Origin: a virus
Reading direction: 5' to 3' (one strand)
Length of the DNA: 20,702 bases
Virus record (IMG/VR): IMGVR_UViG_3300034106_004901
Location: 1 to 20,702 of that record
In this document: positions 8,705 to 20,083 of the stretch, piece after piece
Layout: the number at the start of each line of letters is the position of its first letter
Numbering within the stretch: position 1 is the first letter of the stretch
The notes under the pieces: generated by a model
Told to the model about the DNA's origin: nothing
The model's input: the letters and a program-made list of their open reading frames with translations, nothing else
Database searches by the model: none
Translations under genes and position numbers: made by a program

Positions 8705-9163
8705 TTATAAAACATACTTATACAAATCAAATTCTCCTACTGTCCAATCTTTATCAGCATATTCTAGTATTTTACTATCTAAAAAAGCATTTGTTGTATA
8801 CCATTCTCTTCCATAAATACTTTTATTGTTCTTATGAAATTTACTTTCAAATTCAATTGGAGGAAAAGCCCAAAAAGTTCTAACTTCTTCTATTGTAGGA
8901 TTTTGAGTAATATATTGTTTTATTCTCTTTTTTACATTTTTAGCTCTACCTATTTTATAAATAAATTCTTTTAAACCATAATCATACATTCTTAAAATAT
9001 ACATATTTGGATTATTTTTCATATATTGTAAACTTTTTGGAAAAGTTTTTTTACAGAATTCATCATATTCTTTTTTAGAATTACATTCTGCTAATACTAC
9101 AGTTTTATTTACCCAATCTATTACTGTTAAAATTTGATTTTCTTTTAATTTAATATCATCCAT
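8705..9163 (-). CDS. GIY-YIG-type nuclease (T5orf172-like)
   Basis: This 152-residue protein resembles the T5orf172 branch of the GIY-YIG superfamily, metal-dependent nicking/cleaving nucleases often carried as homing or stand-alone phage enzymes. Visible signs are MYILRMYDYG (start strand), YKIGRAKNVKKRIKQYI (the G-R-x-x-N...R core), and a later EFESKFH...GREWY segment whose Glu is the usual metal ligand. I start at the ATG at 9163; a TTG four codons upstream is less likely. It opens the minus-strand operon, 54 bases ahead of the next gene, and faces the divergent intergenic region. It could be a mobile element or a host-DNA degrading enzyme. Confidence 0.78.
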   Translation of the reverse strand: MDDIKLKENQILTVIDWVNKTVVLAECNSKKEYDEFCKKTFPKSLQYMKNNPNMYILRMYDYGLKEFIYKIGRAKNVKKRIKQYITQNPTIEEVRTFWAFPPIEFESKFHKNNKSIYGREWYTTNAFLDSKILEYADKDWTVGEFDLYKYVL

Positions 9164-9175
9164 ACTATTTAACAA

Positions 9176-9965: not shown

Positions 9966-10751
9966 TTTACTATATATATACATACTTTATATTAAAATAT
10001 GTATATATTTATTATTTAGAATCATTCTAAATAAGAGTGTAAGTGATTGATAATCAACTTTTCCACCAACTCACATAAATCTTATTATTCAAAAAAACTC
10101 AGCTATATATTATATCATAGCTAAAAATTTACTAATCAATTACCTTGACCAAATGATAGGTATATAGATTAATTATGTTCCAACCTAAACTATCCAGTTC
10201 GTGACTGGTATTGTACAGAAGCCATCTAACTGTTGGCCAGAGCATTATTCTAGTTAAACGTGCCAGAAACTAAATACTAGATAACCTTATGGTTGATAAA
10301 CCTTAACAAGCATGTGGGGCTACTATTACATTCTTATTGTGTACTGTTAATACACTTTAAGTATCAAATCATTTAACAGATGATAATGTAAAGTTAGTGC
10401 AGACTTAAAAATCATGCAGTTTTAATCCAGCTTTGATAAACTGGTAACTGATACTTTAATCAGAAAAATCCAATCAGATAAAAACTCACTCTGATTGACT
10501 CTTATGGTGTGAGAAACCATTATTAAGAAGACAAATAGTTCGCTATTAACTTCAACATTTGTAGGAGATTGAGAGGTCTCTGTTTGCAAGATAGCTATTG
10601 CAAATATAACTGCTTATGTAACTATTAAAGAAGGATGAACATAAAGCTGGTATTTCCCAGATATATCCTTTAGCCTATTAGCTGTAATAGGTGAGTCATT
10701 AATCCCACTGGTCTAGCCCATTACCAGATAAATAATTAAAGGCTAAAACAA
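9966..10751 (+). ncRNA. Long structured non-coding region, probable RNA or 5' leader
   Basis: There is no credible ORF in this 786-base stretch, yet it is less AT-rich than the genes and full of local structure. Examples are ATTTAGAA/TTCTAAAT (10014-10032), CCAGT/ACTGG around 10191-10205, an apparent H-type pseudoknot (AATCAGA 10472-10478 with TCTGATT 10490-10496, and CTCAC 10485-10489 with GTGAG 10509-10513), AATAG-TTCG-CTATT (10534-10547), TTTGCAA/TTGCAAA (10583-10604) and the leader element at 10669-10747. It starts right after a terminator, so it may have its own promoter. It may be one or several RNAs or a long leader for the gene at 10752. No RNA family was recognised; strand is assumed plus. 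Confidence 0.5.
10669..10747 (+). promoter_or_regulatory. Leader RNA element, copy A
   Basis: The outer stem TTTAGCC (10669-10675) / GGCTAAA (10741-10747) encloses two arms: TATTA-GCTG-TAATA (10676-10689) and CTGGT (10708-10712) / ACCAG (10723-10727) with loop CTAGCCCATT. The outer stem ends four bases before the start codon of the next gene. A second copy occurs at 11852-11899 with a compensating pair. A role in translation control is inferred from position. Confidence 0.55.
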
Positions 10752-17818: not shown

Positions 17819-17969
17819 AGTCAGGTGGCGGAATTGGTAGACGCTATTAAATTAAACTTTAAGGAGGTCATTGGTTTAAGTCCAATAAGAGAAATCTTTA
17901 GTTCAGCATTGCTGAGAACACCAGAAGTAAATGATTTAATATTTACAGGTTCGAATCCTGTCCTGACTA
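17819..17969 (+). tRNA. Leu-type tRNA gene with ~78-nt insertion
   Basis: Both ends are a clear tRNA: acceptor AGTCAGG (17819-17825) / CCTGACT (17962-17968) with discriminator A at 17969; a Leu-type D arm GGCGGAATTGGTAGACGC; T arm ACAGG-TTCGAAT-CCTGT (17945-17961). The total is 151 nt, about 65-78 nt too long. If 17856-17933 is removed, a normal 73-nt tRNA remains with anticodon stem ATTAA/TTAAT and loop ATTAAAT, anticodon UAA (Leu). The resulting variable loop of 4 bases is wrong for bacterial Leu. Unspliced, a 2-mismatch anticodon stem with UAA and an enormous variable arm is possible. CCA is not encoded. Confidence 0.75.
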
Positions 17970-18012: not shown

Positions 18013-18261
18013 ATGGAAAAACATACTTACGATTTTAAAATATTTAATGGTAGAATAAAAATTTATGTAGATGGTTATGTAATGTTTACATTTAATCAAA
18101 TAGATTTTTTAGGTTATTATGCTTATAAAGATGATACAGATTTATATGGTTTAGATATCTATTTACTTAGAGAAAAAGCAGGTGCTAGTACTATGGAAAT
18201 ATATTTTAAAACTAAAGAAAATTGGTTAGCAATAATTAAATTATTAGATGAAAAATTATGA
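18013..18261 (+). CDS. Small protein, unknown
   Basis: This is an 82-residue protein with an apparent alternating alpha/beta layout: strands KHTYDFKIFNGRIKIYVDG and YVMFTFNQIDFLG, a helix with DLYGLDIYLLREKAG, and a strand-helix end (MEIYFKTKENWLAIIKLLDEKL). No family is recognised. Its TGA overlaps the start of the radical SAM N-terminal gene (ATGA), so it is translationally coupled to it and likely shares its transcript. Confidence 0.7.
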   Translation: MEKHTYDFKIFNGRIKIYVDGYVMFTFNQIDFLGYYAYKDDTDLYGLDIYLLREKAGASTMEIYFKTKENWLAIIKLLDEKL

Positions 18262-18665
18262 TAATAGATGAAGTTATAAGAAAATCTATGATAATTAGAC
18301 CTAGTGGTAGGTCAACAGATTTTATTAGTCCAAGTTTTGGTCATGGTTGTTTATATAATTGTTCTTATTGTGTGACTCCAGATACATTAATTACTACTCC
18401 ATTTGGTTTAAAAATGGCTGGAGAAATTCAGGAAGGAGATCAAGTAATTTCTTTTTCCCTGGATACCTTGAAACCTGAAACAGACTTAATAACTGCAATT
18501 GGTCAAAGGGATACTGATGAACTTTATGTAATTGAAGTAGATGGACAAAGTGTGAACGTAACTGGAGAGCATCCTTTTTATACAAAAAATAGAGGTTGGG
18601 TAGAAGCAAGACATCTAACTGAAAATGATGAACTACTTTGTGATATTGGTGATTTAGTCCAATAA
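18258..18665 (+). CDS. Radical SAM (spore-photoproduct-lyase-like) N-extein + intein N-terminal half
   Basis: This is a 135-residue fusion. Residues 1-37 are the N-extein, ending CLYNCSY, which gives the first two cysteines (C31, C35) of the radical SAM CxxxCxxC motif. C38 is residue 1 of an intein. Residues 38-135 are an intein N-terminal splicing domain with block A (CVTPDTLITTPFG at 38-50, then EGDQVISFS) and block B (VNVTGEHPFYTKNRGWVEA around 104-122). The frame stops at TAA (18663). It needs the C-terminal half at 19214 to trans-splice. The ATG overlaps the upstream stop (ATGA), so translation is coupled. An in-frame joining, for example by a frameshift, is not visible. Confidence 0.9.
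   Translation: MIIDEVIRKSMIIRPSGRSTDFISPSFGHGCLYNCSYCVTPDTLITTPFGLKMAGEIQEGDQVISFSLDTLKPETDLITAIGQRDTDELYVIEVDGQSVNVTGEHPFYTKNRGWVEARHLTENDELLCDIGDLVQ
18369..18662 (+). other. Split intein N-terminal half (98 residues)
   Basis: The region codes for the N-terminal intein domain, from Cys1 (codon 18369-18371) to Q98. Blocks A and B are intact, including the block B motif T-x-E-H-P. The end ENDELLCDIGDLVQ lies beyond block B where an endonuclease domain would be inserted in a full-length intein. Confidence 0.9.
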
Positions 18666-19215
18666 TGTTATTAGGATCAAATACATCTATGTCAGCAAGT
18701 TTACAAAACCATCTTGGGATAATATGATGGTAGTCAATGTTTTCAGTACTATTGGTTAATGCACAGTGTGTAAAGTTTAAATTTTTTTTGAGCTTATACC
18801 ACTCATTAGATTGATATTCTATAGCATGTGAACTACCATCTAAGTAATTAGGATTACCGTTACCTTGATATCTTTCTGATATTATTTTACCTTGATTCTT
18901 TTTACCTAGACCTTGTGCAGTACAATCAGAACAGTAACCTTTTCTTGCTTTAGATTTGGGAGATTGTTCACCACAAATTTTACATATAACCCATTGTGTA
19001 CTTGCTGAAGGAAGTGTTTTATCAATTGTAAATAATAAACCTTCAAACTTTTTCATAGTTCTAGTATCTCTTTTATAGTGTCTACTAGCCTCTTGGAATG
19101 TTCTAAAGATTGGTTTTGATTGTTGATTGAACAATTCAAAATAATTTGTTTCACAGGTAGAATTGCAATAGGTTGTAGACTTTTTTGTAATTTTACCACA
19201 ATATTTACAACTCAT
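18394..19215 (-). CDS. HNH homing endonuclease, antisense between the intein halves
   Basis: This is a 273-residue frame on the minus strand. The N-terminus has two Cys4 zinc fingers: C3-x2-C6 with C17-x3-C21, and ICKICGE (C78, C81) with YCSDC (C95, C98). Residues ~37-60 (FRTFQEASRHYKRDTRTMKKF) look like a short helix-turn-helix or NUMOD-type DNA-recognition segment. The HNH core is IDYHHIIPRWF (H163/H164), FDPNNIIGL (N182/N183) and HQYHKVVHHF (H192 and H196/H197). HNH homing enzymes cut intein-less alleles so the intein is copied in by repair. Residues after about 200 are antisense to intein blocks A/B and are probably carried along. The start ATG overlaps the other strand's ATG in CATG (19213-19216). 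Confidence 0.88.
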   Translation of the reverse strand: MSCKYCGKITKKSTTYCNSTCETNYFELFNQQSKPIFRTFQEASRHYKRDTRTMKKFEGLLFTIDKTLPSASTQWVICKICGEQSPKSKARKGYCSDCTAQGLGKKNQGKIISERYQGNGNPNYLDGSSHAIEYQSNEWYKLKKNLNFTHCALTNSTENIDYHHIIPRWFCKLADIDVFDPNNIIGLNHQYHKVVHHFQLDVLLLPNLYFLYKKDALQLRSHFVHLLQLHKVHQYPFDQLQLLSLFQVSRYPGKKKLLDLLPEFLQPFLNQME

Positions 19216-19333
19216 GGAGTTAAAATTTAAGAAAATAAAAGCTATTACAAAGATAGCAAAAGATACAAAGGTTGTTAACTTTTCTGTAAAAAAGAATGAG
19301 AATTATTTTGCAAATGGAATATTGACTCATAAC
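19214..19333 (+). other. Split intein C-terminal half (40 residues)
   Basis: The region codes for the 40-residue C-terminal intein piece, ending with the His-Asn pair needed for Asn cyclisation (codons up to 19333). The next codon, TGT at 19334, is the +1 Cys. The length is typical of naturally split inteins. Confidence 0.9.
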
Positions 19334-20083
19334 TGTTACATGAAAAGAAATAAATATGAAGGGTTATCAATAGCTACTAATATAGGAGATATTCTTACAA
19401 CTATTAATAACCATTCTTATTTTACAAATGTAGATAAACCTAATCAAACTCATGAAAAATATATTACTTATGATATTTCTTGTAATGAGGATTTTTCTTT
19501 ACATGCTAAATATCATAATTGGGAAAGAATATTTGAGTTTTTTAGAGATCATCCAATAGCAATGGGTAGTTTAGCTACTAAATATGTTAATCCTAATTTA
19601 ACTACATTTGATCCTAAAGGTAAAATTAGAATTAGATTTAGTTTAATGCCTCAAATTATGTCTGATAAATTAGAACCTAATACATCTAAAATAATTGATA
19701 GAATTAAAGCTATTGATGCTTTTATAGATGCAGGTTATGATGTACATATAAATTTTAGTCCTGTAATAGTTGCAGGTAATTGGCTAGAAGAATATGAAGA
19801 TTTATTTAAAATGGTTAATGATTATGTTGATTATAAAGATGTAGTTAAAGCTGAAGTTATATTTCTTACTCATAATGAAGACAAACATAAATATAATTTA
19901 ACTAATAATATTACTGGTGAAGAAGAATATTTATGGATTCCTACAATACAAGAAGATAAAATATCACAATATGGTGGTAAAAATATCAGATATAAACATA
20001 ATTTAAAAAGTGATTTTATTAAATCTTTTGTAGAATTACATGATAAAATAATTGATTGGAATAAAATTAGATATATATTTTAA
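19214..20083 (+). CDS. Intein C-terminal half + radical SAM (spore-photoproduct-lyase-like) C-extein
   Basis: This is a 289-residue fusion. Residues 1-40 are an intein C-terminal domain with blocks F and G (VVNFSVKKNENYFANGILTHN) ending in His39-Asn40. C41 is the C-extein +1 nucleophile and starts CYMKRNKYEG, the third cysteine of the radical SAM motif. The rest matches spore-photoproduct lyase-type enzymes: the core segment IRFSLMPQIMSDKLEPNTS followed by RIKAIDAFIDAGYDVHINFSPVI, then EEYEDLFKMV. Such enzymes repair thymine photoproducts in DNA. Splicing gives 37 + 249 = 286 residues, shorter than typical spore lyases of about 340, so the substrate may differ. No ribosome binding site is obvious upstream. 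Confidence 0.9.
   Translation: MELKFKKIKAITKIAKDTKVVNFSVKKNENYFANGILTHNCYMKRNKYEGLSIATNIGDILTTINNHSYFTNVDKPNQTHEKYITYDISCNEDFSLHAKYHNWERIFEFFRDHPIAMGSLATKYVNPNLTTFDPKGKIRIRFSLMPQIMSDKLEPNTSKIIDRIKAIDAFIDAGYDVHINFSPVIVAGNWLEEYEDLFKMVNDYVDYKDVVKAEVIFLTHNEDKHKYNLTNNITGEEEYLWIPTIQEDKISQYGGKNIRYKHNLKSDFIKSFVELHDKIIDWNKIRYIF

Follow-up and report, generated by a model that had tools for sequence, protein, structure and literature searches.

A candidate mobile split-intein element interlocked with an antisense HNH gene in a phage radical SAM gene

The IMG/VR virus record IMGVR_UViG_3300034106_004901 carries, within the 20,702 nucleotides analysed here (the window), a gene for a radical SAM enzyme that is divided into two open reading frames (ORFs). 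Each ORF is fused to one half of an intein, and between them, on the opposite strand, lies an HNH endonuclease gene whose last third shares its DNA with the N-terminal intein half. Our analysis suggests that this is a mobile split-intein element, interlocked with a dual-coded antisense HNH gene and moving with it as one unit; we put the probability of this reading at about 0.86. A sequence-only reading of the same DNA had already proposed a mobile element at this position. It had not noticed the conserved dual coding of the overlap, nor a putative antisense promoter within the C-terminal intein half.

Anatomy and recurrence of the interrupted gene

The N-half ORF (18258-18665, plus strand) codes for 135 residues and ends in TAA; its start codon region shares bases with the stop of the ORF before it (18013-18261). 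It consists of an N-extein of 37 residues (18258-18368, plus strand), whose GCLYNCSY end holds the first two cysteines of the radical SAM motif CxxxCxxC, and of an intein-N of 98 residues (18369-18662, plus strand) beginning with CVTPD. The C-half ORF (19214-20083, plus strand; 289 residues) joins an intein-C of 40 residues (19214-19333, plus strand), with blocks F and G and a terminal LTHN followed by Cys+1, to a C-extein of 249 residues (19334-20083, plus strand), which begins with CYMKR and whose residue 1 is the third cysteine of the motif. The host gene is thus broken immediately before this third cysteine, so that the intein +1 residue would itself be a cluster ligand, the third. The joined motif (GCLYNCSY/CY, the slash marking the junction) is as in uninterrupted relatives.

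Both extein halves match a single family model, TIGR03886, with continuous coordinates (positions 62-96, E 2.5e-8, for the N-half and 91-346, E 7.8e-75, for the C-half), each half alone scoring below the cut-off set for the whole protein. The C-extein also matches the Pfam family SPL (PF20903, 6e-15), and its closest solved structure is that of spore photoproduct lyase (PDB 4fhc, 4e-5). By these profile matches the halves are those of one radical SAM enzyme of the spore photoproduct lyase family, as the sequence-only reading had held with correct coordinates, and not members of different families. The phage protein is shorter than the family model, the predicted joined enzyme having 286 residues (37 + 249) compared with 346 model positions.

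The fusion of each extein to an intein half is likewise borne out. Intein-N scores 29.7 bits with the NCBIfam model intein_Nterm (TIGR01445; curated cut-off 24.5) and intein-C 24.8 bits with intein_Cterm (TIGR01443; curated cut-off 15.6); intein-N also matches PT-HINT (3.6e-11), and its PDB relatives include 2lwy and NrdJ-1 (8ubs, 5.7e-7). Cys1 and the TxxH motif of intein-N (T65, H68) are invariant across 32 sequences; the His-Asn pair of intein-C (H39, N40) and Cys+1 are invariant too. Among weaker relatives of intein-N (loci L261-L296), single-chain inteins and other Hint proteins predominate, and none is accompanied by an antisense HNH gene. In two of these loci (L278 and L279, 3001-3273) a single-chain intein precedes a cysteine of a radical SAM-like motif (FGCKFGCNF/CLSAGT) in a different protein, indicating that a similar type of motif has been invaded there.

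Relatives were sought by scanning viral contigs with the C-half, the N-half and the HNH protein, and their layout was established by tblastn and then read at codon level. Together with the window, 32 complete elements were found, and two divergent ones, L257 and L260 (intein-N 67% and 44% identical, respectively), bring the number to 34, all with the same gene order. Across the 32, the HNH and C-half starts overlap by two bases in the palindrome CATG, and 548 nucleotides separate the N-half stop from the C-half start (551 and 539 once each); the length of the element, 965 nucleotides, is invariant among the 31 compared. Intein-less relatives, which the sequence-only reading had proposed to look for, are numerous: in 79 distinct alleles the N- and C-exteins are contiguous at the identical junction residue.

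Simpler explanations of the interruption can be set aside. A sequencing error that breaks a fused cis intein is ruled out by the 34 elements, by the three types of stop codon that end the N-half in different loci (TAA, TGA or TAG) and by the closed plus-strand gap between the halves, with 10-19 stops per frame. Stop recoding or an alternative code is ruled out as well, the stop of the N-half usually being TAA and elsewhere TGA or TAG, and so is an RNA intron, as no Rfam match was found in that gap.

Some loci depart from the common pattern. In L260 (2869-4706), the most divergent element, the HNH protein is devoid of its first zinc-finger-like part, while gene order and antisense overlap are retained; the host protein there has the spacing CxxxCxxxxC across the junction (GCLGGCMKSY/C), not CxxxCxxC. 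The intein-less allele L125 (4099-5240) carries another insert: its ORF stops after TYDIS and restarts at NEDFALH, and the insert contains a 270-residue ORF that appears GIY-YIG-like by eye. The host gene seems to be a hot spot for mobile elements.

The antisense HNH gene, dual coding and a putative promoter

The HNH gene (18394-19215, minus strand) codes for 273 residues; in an alignment of 32 sequences it shows zinc-finger-like cysteine pairs and an HNH motif at residues 161-196. The protein matches phrog_8048 (HNH, 5.7e-5) over its core only (residues 149-197). H163, H164, N183 and H192 are invariant in 13 divergent sequences, as is His196; this conservation points to an HNH catalytic motif, weakly recognised by hidden Markov models. 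The AlphaFold model, which improved when a more diverse alignment was used, predicts strands at 160-164 and 184-188 and a helix at 189-199, with a confidence of 67-87 per block for residues 181-230. No relatives of the HNH protein beyond this element were detected in viral contigs (39 of 39 matches being this element) or in GTDB genomes.

The antisense placement of this gene between the halves agrees with the sequence-only reading, which had also let it overlap both of them. The overlap is in fact uneven: that with the C-half is confined to the start codons in CATG, and that with the N-half extends over 272 nucleotides (18394-18665, both strands). Here HNH residues 184-273 and the stop, on the minus strand, lie opposite the plus-strand codons of intein-N numbered about 10 up to 98; the overlap also encodes the second strand and the helix predicted for the HNH core.

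The antisense HNH frame runs open through intein-N in every element and ends near intein codon 10. Pairwise divergence among 27 distinct elements, at sense codon positions 1, 2 and 3, is 0.097, 0.115 and 0.076 in the overlap, as against 0.091, 0.040 and 0.442 in the nine intein-N codons that precede it and 0.130, 0.081 and 0.262 in intein-C; the part of the HNH gene outside the overlap, read in its own frame, gives 0.164, 0.125 and 0.305. Third-position divergence falls within a few codons of the HNH gene end, and the difference between overlap and HNH-exclusive third positions is highly significant (Fisher p 4e-17). The inverted order is explained by the relation between the frames, sense position 3 being the middle of the HNH codon and sense position 2 its wobble position. 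When intein-N was recoded synonymously with the codon usage of the phage, 0.12-0.25% of draws per sequence kept the antisense frame free of stops. The ratio of nonsynonymous to synonymous rates (dN/dS) of the HNH frame is 0.37 in the overlap. A star-like count of substitution classes gave an excess of changes that are nonsynonymous in sense and synonymous in antisense (52 seen, 37.5 expected); the reverse class was not depleted, and this count, which ignores frequencies, is not relied on. By these measures the overlap is a conserved dual-coding antisense pair in which both frames are constrained and synonymous change is suppressed.

A promoter for the HNH gene probably sits on the minus strand inside intein-C (19248-19278, TTAACA-N17-TATCTTTG). 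The sequence TATCTTTG agrees with TAHHTTTG, the -7 element of Bacteroidetes (PMC6847099; also PMC9723704), and would place the start site 28 nucleotides ahead of the HNH start codon. TTAACA or TTGACA stands 17 nucleotides upstream of this element, in the form TTGACA in 18 of 32 loci. The codons that form the boxes are frozen (ATA 26/26; AAG 25/26; GTT, AAC, TTT, TCT and GTA 26/26), although most remaining intein-C codons vary; AAG (14 of 194 Lys codons) and GTC (1 of 87 Val codons) are rare in this phage.

These features bear on two other views of the locus. It could be an ordinary fractured gene, in which a freestanding homing gene occupies the canonical endonuclease site and its antisense orientation means nothing special. 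The anatomy agrees with the reported kind; we nevertheless consider this unlikely, since the last 90 HNH codons are dual-coded with intein-N and the probable promoter lies in intein-C. It could also be argued that the antisense extension is accidental, the gene ending near the gap, and that the low synonymous variation reflects a constraint on the DNA itself, for instance a site that is bound or cleaved. The restriction of the HNH match to the core and the low predicted confidence of the last 30 residues would suit such a view. We regard it as very improbable, as the constraint is frame-specific, sense position 2 varying more than position 3, the reverse of a normal gene, and codon phase would not be tracked by so long a constraint acting on the DNA independently of protein. 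Moreover, the HNH frame is the sole stop-free antisense frame (27 of 27 distinct elements, the other two having stops in all 27), the last two invariant histidines (192 and 196) fall within the overlap, and the antisense protein is still recognisably similar in L257 and in L260, there despite 44% intein-N identity (tblastn 3e-30).

Mobility and proposed mode of action

The interlocked element has a history of its own. On an extein tree of 112 sequences, the 79 distinct uninterrupted relatives among them, its presence and absence require at least 21 changes, at least 10 of them forced by well-supported branches. In 459 of 465 pairs the two loci resemble each other more in the element than in the C-extein; the window and L082 share 93.6% identity in the element and 76.0% in the extein, and the window and L002 share 80.5% and 93.1%, respectively. 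Judged from these comparisons together with the uninterrupted alleles, the element has spread horizontally and independently of its host gene, in line with the mobility first proposed. On the N side beside the insertion site, with far-extein identity matched, pairs of one allele with and one without the element are more different (0.735) than pairs in which both lack it (0.864), as co-conversion would give. In L084 (2627-2741) an extra copy of the N-extein, truncated exactly at the insertion junction, precedes the intact N-half by 0.4 kb. This copy is homologous to uninterrupted alleles up to the junction and is followed by another upstream gene, the full N-extein and the element; a break at the junction would be expected to leave such a trace.

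Alternatively, the element could be a decayed, non-mobile relic with no working homing endonuclease, in a split gene that is vertically inherited. That public models recognise the HNH family weakly would suit this view. None of the 34 complete elements, however, has a broken HNH frame, which outside the overlap shows purifying selection (dN/dS 0.19), and the scattered distribution and the incongruence between element and host gene also argue against a relic, to which we give very little credence.

A mobile, interlocked element would most likely operate as follows. The N-half and the C-half would be translated separately, in view of the overlap of the N-half start with the previous stop and of the lack of Shine-Dalgarno sequences in Bacteroidetes (PMC6847099). 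Protein trans-splicing would then join them into the 286-residue enzyme and rebuild CxxxCxxC, the +1 Cys serving as third cluster ligand. That the halves instead act as separate subunits after a gene fission without splicing matches their being separate ORFs but is hardly conceivable, given the break inside the [4Fe-4S] motif and the invariance of all intein catalytic residues. The HNH protein would be expressed from a promoter of its own on the antisense strand and would cut uninterrupted alleles in the conserved DNA that codes for the motif, and repair would copy the element in. With the promoter in intein-C, the shared CATG and the final third of the HNH gene in intein-N, splicer and endonuclease are interleaved and would be inherited and transferred as one 965-nucleotide unit.

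Several points weigh against this scheme, which is drawn from sequence. The match of the HNH protein to the Pfam family HNH_2 is below the cut-off (E 0.24), the mean predicted local distance difference test score of its AlphaFold model is 69.9 and drops below 50 in the last 30 residues, and a PDB fold search with that model returned nothing significant, though HNH nucleases top the list. In L091 and L092 the HNH start codon would be ATA, not ATG, and the C-half ATG is retained. The promoter motif by itself arises in 2.7% of synonymous recodings, and for this reason we grade the promoter only as probable. The flank pairs with and without the element are mutually non-independent, and the cleavage footprint comes from a single locus, L084.

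In the homing cycle (PMC3229294) an element that has become fixed should in time lose its endonuclease, and why some elements keep it is a long-standing question. Among the 34 elements none is without an intact endonuclease frame. The interleaving might be an adaptation that makes part of the HNH gene indispensable to the host gene, slows its decay and blocks recombinational separation. We advance this idea tentatively and with some doubt: about 183 of the 273 HNH codons lie outside the overlap, unprotected by it, which leaves the slowing of decay attractive but unproven. About 90 HNH codons, including codons for invariant active-site histidine, cannot change freely without affecting the splicing domain on which the host gene depends, and the question of endonuclease retention thereby becomes testable. 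The locus also provides an antisense dual-coding gene pair for which numerous alleles are available from nature. Its split inteins (98 + 40 residues) form a natural family in which folding has to be maintained although the codons are also used for another protein.

Host phage and comparison with known systems

The host phage fits the crAss-like phages (Crassvirales), as the sequence-only reading had supposed. Its TerL is 30-33% identical to those of crAss-like phages over about 90% of TerL length, Bacteroides, Flavobacterium and Cellulophaga phages being among the records matched; the portal matches phrog_6547 (1.5e-105) and the terminase phrog_6681 (2.2e-110). Cultured phages searched with the C-half and the HNH protein gave no match. 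Elsewhere in the window, a Hatchet ribozyme (10283-10417, plus strand; 82.6 bits, gathering score 51) occurs in the phage genome, and a tRNA (17819-17969, plus strand; 44.2 bits), missed by ARAGORN, has about 80 extra bases between the strands of the anticodon stem and is possibly a tRNA-Leu carrying an insertion. A 156-residue ORF (8705-9175, minus strand), with weak PHROGs matches to families of unknown function (phrog_8130, 5.1e-5) and GIY-YIG-like by eye (YKIGRAKNVKKRIKQY), may be a further freestanding gene of the homing type.

Some groups of crAss-like phages are densely populated with self-splicing elements (PMC7886860). The TerL intein given there as an example is in-frame, and the main text of that paper mentions neither a radical SAM gene nor HNH nor spore photoproduct lyase. 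Intein-N resembles that of NrdJ-1 and, as in NrdJ-1, gp41-1 and related natural split inteins, the split lies between blocks B and F; an overlapping antisense endonuclease is not described for them in the literature found. A weak match (2.6e-5) to NF038136, an intein-containing Rv2578c-family radical SAM protein, spans the radical SAM motif and intein-N, suggesting that an intein probably sits at the equivalent cysteine there; that protein is bacterial, belongs to a different radical SAM family and carries its intein in cis, as a single chain.

No description of an endonuclease gene that overlaps an intein in antisense was found in the openly accessible full-text literature searched. The closest arrangement is that of the fractured genes, reportedly described by Dassa et al. 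in 2009 from phage-like metagenomic sequence, in which a freestanding endonuclease, said to be of the EDxHD (Vsr-related) family, lies between the halves of a gene with a split intein. By that description, both have a conserved enzyme gene divided into two ORFs that each carry half of an intein, with an endonuclease gene between them. The window differs in its radical SAM host gene and in having HNH instead of EDxHD, which makes it a variant, and apparently also in an endonuclease that is antisense, dual-coded with intein-N and probably driven from a promoter in intein-C. The element would work like the fractured genes and is best filed as a variant of them, apparently set apart by its interleaving.
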